A DNA stretch of 44,269 nucleotides from Oscillospiraceae bacterium (GTDB lineage Bacteria > Bacillota > Clostridia > Oscillospirales > QAMX01), in contig SVLW01000014.1 of the NCBI GenBank assembly GCA_015067705.1, positions 1 to 44,269 on the forward strand, written 5' to 3'. Position 1 is the first letter of the stretch; each line of letters begins with the position of its first letter. The notes below the pieces were generated by a model, which was not told the origin of the DNA, did no database searches, and saw only the letters and a program-made list of their open reading frames with translations. Shown here one piece after another: positions 1,864-11,227 of the stretch. A program made the position numbers and the translations under genes.

Positions 1864-1895
1864 AAAATAAAAAAAGAGTATCTGGAGAAGAAGAA

Positions 1896-3419
1896 ATGGG
1901 ATATGAATACCTTGTGGCGGCACTTGCGGCCGCTCTTGCCGGTATTGGCACCGGACTGGTGGGCCTGAGTGCGGCTACGGCAATGGTGCCGCTTCTGATT
2001 GTTCTGTGCCCGACCTTCGGCGGGGAGCACGGCGCATATATGGCAACGGCGATTGCGCTTGCCAGCGATATTCTCGGCTCTGCCGTTACCACCGGCGTGT
2101 ATGCGAAAAACAAAAAGATAGACCTCAGACACGGATGGCTGATTGCCGTCTGCATCATCGGGATGTGCACCGTCGGTTCGGTGGCGGCATACTTTACTCA
2201 CCAGACGGTGCTGGGCGGTTTCTCCCTGTTCCTGTGCGTTGCGATTGGCATTCGGTTCTTGGTCAGTCCCGATTCAAAGGAACGGCCGGAAAAAGACGGC
2301 AAGTCCAGACTGTCCGTTCGGGAAATTGCCATTTCGCTCTTTTTTGGCCTGACCATCGGCTTTGGCACGGGCTTTTTCGGCACAGGCGGCGGAATGATGA
2401 TGCTGATCGTGTTCACCGCCATGCTGGGGTATGACCGGAAAACAGCCGTGGGAACCTCCACCTTTATCATGACCTTCACGGCCCTGATCGCCGCGGTCAG
2501 TCACATCCTCATTGAGCCGACCATCGTCCTGGAATGCTGGAAGTTCCTGCTTCTCTCGATCGTGGTCGCCACCGTTTTCTCGCTTGTCAGCGCGAAATTC
2601 GCCAACAGAGTCAAGGGCAGAGTCGTCGGATACACCACCGGCGCGATTTTGCTGGTGCTCGGTCTCTCCATGATCCTGATCAACAACCTGGATCGTCTCA
2701 ATCTTCCATATCTTTTGGCTTTTTTGCGGGTGTTCGGCATTTATGTGGGATATATCGTGGCCCTGGCCGCGGTGTTGATCGTGATCCGCTTTACCACAAA
2801 GGTCAAGGATCATATCTTCCGAAAGCTCCTGCATTTTGTGGCCTTCACGTCCATTGTTCCGTTGGTATTCGCCGCGGACGTCTGGTGGATTGCCGCTGCG
2901 GTGGAGGTGCTGTTCCTCATTCTCGTGATTGCGGCGCTGCATTTCTTTGAGGACTTTGCCTTTTACCAGCGTCTGTTTGTGGAAAAAGCAAAGCACGAAG
3001 TCATCCTGAGTTTCGTGTCCTTATTCGGCCTGATGACCGTGCTGATCGCGGTCTTTTGGGGCATTTTCGGCAGAGCGCATCTGTTCATTGCCATGGGCGC
3101 CATTATGGCCTGGGGGCCGGGCGATGGGATGGCGGCCGTTGTTGGCAAAGAATATGGCAGGCATAAACTGCGGGGTAAGCGCATCGAAGGCACGAAATCC
3201 ATCGAAGGCAGCGTTGCCATGGCGATCACCGCCTTTGTATGCCTGCTCCCGGTCCTGCTTACCATGTCGCCGCTTCCCTGGTACGCCGCTGTGCTTGCGG
3301 CACTGGTCATCGCACCCATCGCATCCGTAACCGAGCTTCTGACCAAAGGCGGATGGGATACGGTAACGGTACCTGCCATCTCGGCGATCCTGCTGTCTGT
3401 CACCTTGATCTGGTGGTAA
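1896..3419 (+). CDS. TSUP (TauE/SafE) transporter fused to a dolichol/phytol-kinase-like membrane domain
   Basis: 507 residues, start ATG after GGAGAAG. Residues 1 to ~265 are a TSUP-type membrane domain: two related halves beginning AGIGTGLVGLSAA and GFGTGFFGTGGGMM, the glycine-rich repeats typical of TauE/SafE sulfite/organosulfonate/anion exporters. Residues ~275-507 are a second polytopic domain resembling CTP-dependent dolichol/phytol kinases and CdsA-like cytidylyltransferases: RKLLH (309-313), GPGDGMAAVVG (Asp410), KSIEGS (434-439) and a C-terminal GGWDTVTVP (Asp488). Each half has the usual length of a stand-alone protein, and there is no stop or frameshift between them. The lipid or isoprenoid alcohol phosphorylated and the ion moved are unknown. 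Own promoter; the GH2 gene follows after 92 bp. Confidence 0.8.
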   Translation: MGYEYLVAALAAALAGIGTGLVGLSAATAMVPLLIVLCPTFGGEHGAYMATAIALASDILGSAVTTGVYAKNKKIDLRHGWLIAVCIIGMCTVGSVAAYFTHQTVLGGFSLFLCVAIGIRFLVSPDSKERPEKDGKSRLSVREIAISLFFGLTIGFGTGFFGTGGGMMMLIVFTAMLGYDRKTAVGTSTFIMTFTALIAAVSHILIEPTIVLECWKFLLLSIVVATVFSLVSAKFANRVKGRVVGYTTGAILLVLGLSMILINNLDRLNLPYLLAFLRVFGIYVGYIVALAAVLIVIRFTTKVKDHIFRKLLHFVAFTSIVPLVFAADVWWIAAAVEVLFLILVIAALHFFEDFAFYQRLFVEKAKHEVILSFVSLFGLMTVLIAVFWGIFGRAHLFIAMGAIMAWGPGDGMAAVVGKEYGRHKLRGKRIEGTKSIEGSVAMAITAFVCLLPVLLTMSPLPWYAAVLAALVIAPIASVTELLTKGGWDTVTVPAISAILLSVTLIWW

Positions 3420-10345: not shown

Positions 10346-11227
10346 ATGAAGCAGCTCCTTTTAGTGCTCAATCCCACCTCCGGAACCAAAAAAGCCGCCA
10401 AAAATCTCCCGGAGATCATCTCCGTGTTCAATCGGGCGGACTATGATGTGCACGTCTATATCACCACCTGTCAGGGGGACGGCACGGCGGCGGTGCGCCG
10501 CTTTGCCCGGAATATGGATCTGTTGGTCTGCTGCGGCGGCGACGGCACATTAAACGAGATCGTCACCGGCCTCATCGAAGAGGATCTCTATGTCCCAGTG
10601 GGATATATCCCCTCCGGCTCCACCAACGATTTCGCCAATTCCCTGCATCTCTCCGCCAATGTGGTCGATGCGGCGGAGCAGATCGTGCGGGGGACGGCGT
10701 ATCCCTATGATGTGGGCCGCTTTGGCACCCGCTTTTTCACCTATGTGGCCTCCTTCGGCGCCTTCACCCGGGCCAGTTATCAGACGCCCCAGAGCATCAA
10801 AAACGCCCTGGGCCACACCGCCTATCTTCTGGAAGGCATTCAGGAGCTCTCCTCCATCCGGAAGGAGCATATCCGCATCGAGCTGGACGGCGAGATCCTG
10901 GAGGATGATTACCTCTTCGGGGCCATCTGCAATTCCACCAGTATCGGCGGAATTCTGACGCTGCCGCCCCGGGTGGTGGATATGAGCGACGGCAAGTTCG
11001 AGCTGGTGCTCTTACGCACGCCCCGGGATCTGCAGGAGCTTCACGACTGCGTGCTGGCCCTGCGGAACCAGACCTATGACTGCGGAATGCTCACCTTCCG
11101 CAAGGCCGATGTGGTGCGGGTCTGGGCGGATCCGGAGATGACCTGGTCCTTGGACGGCGAGCGGGCAGAGGGCAGCGCCCTCACCACCATCGAAAACATC
11201 CACCGCCGGATCACCTTGCTGCACTAA
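10346..11227 (+). CDS. Diacylglycerol kinase-family lipid kinase (DagK/YegS-like)
   Basis: 293 residues, normal for the soluble DAGK_cat family. Phosphorylates diacylglycerol or a related lipid using ATP, recycling lipid headgroup-turnover products. N-terminal LVLNPTSGTKKA, nucleotide-binding GGDGTLNE (GGDGT at 64-68) and PSGSTNDFANSL are the family signatures; the C-terminal beta-sandwich begins near TYVASFGAFT. DAGK enzymes usually have P-L/A-G-T-x-N-D-F in the second motif; Ser replaces Thr in GSTNDF, which I believe is a tolerated clostridial variant. It stands alone between two divergently and convergently placed GH51 genes and has its own promoter and terminator. Confidence 0.9.
   Translation: MKQLLLVLNPTSGTKKAAKNLPEIISVFNRADYDVHVYITTCQGDGTAAVRRFARNMDLLVCCGGDGTLNEIVTGLIEEDLYVPVGYIPSGSTNDFANSLHLSANVVDAAEQIVRGTAYPYDVGRFGTRFFTYVASFGAFTRASYQTPQSIKNALGHTAYLLEGIQELSSIRKEHIRIELDGEILEDDYLFGAICNSTSIGGILTLPPRVVDMSDGKFELVLLRTPRDLQELHDCVLALRNQTYDCGMLTFRKADVVRVWADPEMTWSLDGERAEGSALTTIENIHRRITLLH

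Follow-up and report, generated by a model that had tools for sequence, protein, structure and literature searches.

A TSUP transporter domain fused to a dolichol/phytol-kinase-like domain in gut Clostridia

A gene of an Oscillospiraceae bacterium (assembly GCA_015067705.1, contig SVLW01000014.1) appears to join two membrane domains of separate families, which raises the question of whether the join is real and what the two halves would do together. The whole stretch of DNA analyzed, 44,269 nt, is referred to as the window. A TSUP domain paired with a dolichol-kinase-like domain was not found described in the open-access literature searched, nor was any studied member of the kinase subfamily. 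The features of the gene are listed below.

1884 to 1887, plus strand: GGAG, likely ribosome-binding site, 8 nt before the ATG
1896 to 3419, plus strand: TSUP-kinase fusion gene, 507 aa and stop (ATG start, TAA stop)
1920 to 2672, plus strand: TSUP transporter domain (PF01925), residues 9-259, two repeats, BacA-like in the model
2703 to 3416, plus strand: dolichol/phytol-kinase-like domain, residues 270-507, from relatives, profile comparison and structure
2820 to 2834, plus strand: RKLLH, residues 309-313, proposed phosphate clamp (RKxxH), from conservation in the fusions and the PfPolK clamp
3123 to 3209, plus strand: DxxAxxxGxxxG-x12-K(S/T)xEG, residues 410-438, probable CTP-binding loop, from the dolichol kinase motif
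3333 to 3374, plus strand: C-terminal motif ExxxxxGxDxxxxP (E480, G486, D488, P493), from conservation

An earlier note on this DNA had proposed that one uninterrupted frame carries both domains, and the 507-aa open reading frame bears this out; it is a single-copy gene in its genome, with a TSUP portion spanning residues 1-264 and a kinase-like portion spanning residues 270-507. The motifs quoted in that note were all located (RKLLH at 309-313, GPGDG at 407-411, KSIEGS at 434-439 and GGWDTVTVP at 485-493), and GxG-rich stretches were confirmed near residues 15-24 and 155-166. Its assignment of the two domains was also correct. The first half matched PF01925 over residues 9-259 and profile positions 2-237 of 237 (E = 2.2e-29; 103.3 bits against a gathering cut-off of 32.6), so it is a full-length member of the TSUP/TauE/SafE family, from which it differs in bearing a C-terminal, putatively enzymatic domain. 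That second half was assigned by the profile and structure comparisons given below, and its reading as a second transporter domain was ruled out (hhalign against TSUP, E = 0.49, probability 0.1%).

The search for this architecture across genomes, suggested in the same note, was run on one genome per species and yielded 61 loci. At 41 loci besides the window (42 fusions in total), a single frame encoded both halves, with order and linker unchanged, which excludes an assembly join or chance as the origin of the gene. Two further fusion loci were interrupted by frameshifts, and other loci encoded only the TSUP half, at up to 88% identity. Nearly all fusion hosts were gut metagenome-assembled genomes (MAGs) from ruminants, rabbits and other animals; as the genome collection is rich in such MAGs, habitat was not taken as evidence. 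Among the fusions, identity was 65-91% in the TSUP half and 35-76% in the C-terminal half. In the tree of C-terminal halves the fused kinase halves formed one group (99/93) adjoining stand-alone kinases, and in the tree of TSUP halves the TSUP-only proteins were nested among the fusions, with 7 changes, at least 5 of them forced by well-supported branches. Together, these two trees read as one fusion event followed by several losses of the kinase half. Most TSUP-only genomes had no close kinase relative elsewhere in the genome, although these are MAGs and may be incomplete. The repeated loss of the kinase half from TSUP proteins of 80-88% identity speaks for a transporter that can do without it. 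Two loci of this set are recorded separately. L087 stops inside the kinase half, at a 1-nt insertion followed by unrelated sequence (decay or an assembly chimera), and L058 (7998-10700, plus strand) was read as a fusion of 901 aa with a C-terminal extension that is weakly FG-GAP-repeat-like. L056, a close relative, lacks this extension, which was therefore not treated as a third family domain.

For the C-terminal half, Pfam gave nothing reliable at residues 260-507. The window protein had no match to PF01148 (CTP_transf_1), which was matched by 3 of 32 relatives (best 6.4e-6), and PDB sequence searches, with the single protein and with a profile, found no relative. A profile search within the class returned stand-alone relatives of about 220-300 aa first and CdsA after them. 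Aligned with hhalign, the half matched VTE5-like proteins at 2.4e-22 over 203 columns, and a joint alignment had 13 invariant columns. The VTE5-like label of these references rests on their neighbors, as most have a phytoene/squalene-synthase-like gene on one side and a DUF92 (PF01940, VTE6-like) gene on the other; one such kinase is itself fused to DUF92 in a single frame (L119, 1480-2916, plus strand). On the basis of relatives, profile comparison and structure, the C-terminal half is placed in the dolichol/phytol-kinase (SEC59/VTE5) superfamily. With VTE5, FOLK and PfPolK it shares RKxxH, GxGDxxA...G, KS..G, ExxxxxGxDxxxxP and a length of about 220-240 aa; in contrast, its identity to the VTE5-like proteins beside DUF92 is just 19-25%, and it is fused behind a TSUP transporter, outside any isoprenoid operon.

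The motifs of this half were compared with published ones. The charged RKxxH clamp of PfPolK, a malaria prenol kinase (PMC10849223), served as a test for this superfamily and was found at residues 309-313; across the 42 fusions its R was conserved in 41, and its K and H in all. The CTP-binding motif of dolichol kinases (SEC59, DOLK, AtDOK1), DxxAxxxGxxxGx8KKTxEG (PMC5853391), is shared as DxxAxxxGxxxG...K(S/T)xEG, but the window protein has x12 in place of x8 and one K in place of KK. As the exact motif is absent, the half is not called a dolichol kinase. Residues R309, K310, H313, G407, G409, D410, A413, G417, G421, K434, E437, G438, E480, G486, D488 and P493 were invariant in the 42 fusions or deviated in one sequence, and the loop at 421-435 is strongly basic.

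The reading we favor, and consider somewhat probable, has a CTP-dependent lipid-alcohol kinase joined to a TSUP anion transporter that also works alone. We infer catalysis, CTP use and orientation of the kinase half as follows. It would bind CTP in the positively charged loop 421-435, placed in the cytoplasm by the positive-inside rule, and, with CTP as the donor, would phosphorylate a membrane alcohol (prenol, polyprenol or diacylglycerol) at the cytoplasmic face. The TSUP half, a putative inverted repeat like UppP/BacA, would move an anion, also by itself, and the fusion would keep kinase and transporter together. Several lineages have dispensed with the kinase half, which makes co-location more likely than a tight and obligatory coupling; any coupling is probably loose, through a shared location or flux.

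A closer cooperation of the halves, in the direction of the flippase-like function suggested in the earlier note, was considered: a lipid or prenyl phosphate produced by the kinase half within the inner leaflet would itself be carried across the membrane by the TSUP half, or its product would be. The full-length model had a pLDDT of about 79 overall, with lower values in the TSUP half (blocks of 45-84). Within it, residues 2-264 matched UppP/BacA, a polyprenyl enzyme, with Z = 12.3 and 4.3 Å over 241 residues, and the next unrelated structural match of this half was at Z of about 6. In the model, a pair of short helices precedes longer ones, and this arrangement occurs twice. BacA is an interdigitated inverted repeat in which a helix pair and longer helices likewise occur twice, its fold was reported as unique, and a flippase role has been proposed for it (PMC5861054, PMC5852022). 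On this reading both halves would act on related lipids. The match is, however, at the level of fold: the window protein lacks the phosphatase motif EF.P[IV]SSSGH, and the profile similarity of TSUP to UppP, while collinear, was weak (E = 0.003, probability 10%), so common ancestry of the two families is only suggested. The UppP of this genome is a separate gene. Against the reading stand also the TSUP-only orthologues, which persist without a kinase at 80-88% identity, and the small anions to which characterized TSUP proteins are linked. Transport of a lipid phosphate by the TSUP half is therefore judged unlikely, and the fuller version, a kinase-flippase for prenol or lipid phosphate whose TSUP domain shares ancestry with UppP/BacA, quite unlikely.

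The kinase half could alternatively replace a missing undecaprenol/diacylglycerol kinase, DgkA/UdpK (PF01219), which was matched neither in the window protein nor in its genome. PF01219 was rarer in fusion genomes (2 of 37) than in TSUP-only genomes (10 of 17; Fisher P = 4e-5), as replacement would predict. Two controls weakened this association: none of the examined members of the window's family had PF01219, and nearly all of them lacked the fusion too; genomes with stand-alone kinases carried it at about the rate of the class (8 of 16 versus 196 of 391). Given its absence from the family members examined and the background rate in stand-alone-kinase genomes, the association was discounted and treated as confounded by phylogeny, and replacement appears very unlikely.

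Structure prediction, also proposed in the earlier note, was run, and gave a C-terminal half modeled at pLDDT 94; among PDB entries, it clearly matched CdsA and nothing else. CdsA chains took the top four places in Foldseek (probability 0.96-1.00, next rows <0.2), the profile-profile comparison with CdsA gave 9.7e-11, and the structural Z was 8.0, a value that helical proteins often reach and that is not decisive alone. The half could thus be a CdsA-type cytidylyltransferase making a CDP-lipid, with which it has the D...G...G...K(S/T)xEG core of the CTP site in common. It lacks, however, the C-terminal signature KR..KD.G..PGHGG..DR.D present in the CdsA proteins compared, in place of which it carries ExxxxxGxDTxxxP and RKxxH, as VTE5-like proteins do, and the genome already has a CdsA-family gene of its own; a cytidylyltransferase is highly improbable here. 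Scarcely credible is a C-terminal half that has lost catalysis and only stabilizes or regulates the transporter: faster evolution than in the TSUP half and repeated loss speak for it, but the active-site residues hardly vary even though identity elsewhere falls to about 35%.

The genes beside the kinase relatives bear on the favored reading, a kinase tethered to an anion transporter. Directly after the nearest stand-alone kinases, a small membrane gene resembling cation efflux proteins (PF01545) was present in 22 of 23 scored loci. Pairing of the kinase with a transporter-like partner thus recurs, with partners differing by lineage, and this supports a functional link between the two halves. 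At L094 (2216-2836, plus strand) and in its relatives, the PF01545-like membrane protein has the conserved motif ADFxRRxxEL; canonical metal sites of cation efflux proteins have acidic or histidine residues at this position, so the partner may not be a metal exporter. More distant kinase relatives adjoin BtaA-like DUF3419 genes. A protein of 445-448 aa, the first half of which is a distant kinase relative, is encoded at L113 (820-2163, minus strand) and L118 (1477-2811, plus strand) between a BtaA-like DUF3419 gene and, by eye, a possible acetyltransferase gene; a link of this protein to betaine lipids is possible. The neighborhoods of the fusions showed no conserved pattern that could serve as a clue to the substrate, and a single clade had an Abhydrolase_3 (lipase/esterase-like) gene downstream, at a distance of 10-22 bp (L031, L034, L037, L039, L041, L043 and L059).

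Two other parts of the window were recorded. Downstream of the fusion, a soluble diacylglycerol kinase (DAGK_cat, PF00781, E = 1.5e-33) is encoded at 10346-11224 on the plus strand, a second lipid kinase close by. Upstream, positions 1-1744 have a GC content of 37.8%, versus about 59% further downstream, and include a truncated AAA_21 ATPase (PF13304) and, near 1265-1455 on the minus strand, a small HTH/excisionase-like frame; the gene at 317-1171 may be RloB-like (judged by eye, without a Pfam match). Positions 1700-1744, where the low-GC stretch ends, resemble a tRNA's 3' half, as would be expected at the attachment site of an integrated element; 32 bases of it occurred once in the assembly.

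If the favored reading is true, gut Clostridia have a conserved protein whose two domains link the phosphorylation of lipid alcohols to a transporter, and its kinase half belongs to a subfamily that is mostly missed by Pfam and whose transporter-like partners vary between lineages. The fold match between TSUP and BacA could tie a little-understood transporter family to the lipid-carrier cycle of the cell wall. Were the kinase-flippase reading true instead, TSUP and UppP would form one superfamily, and the protein would be a single-chain machine for the salvage of prenyl phosphates.
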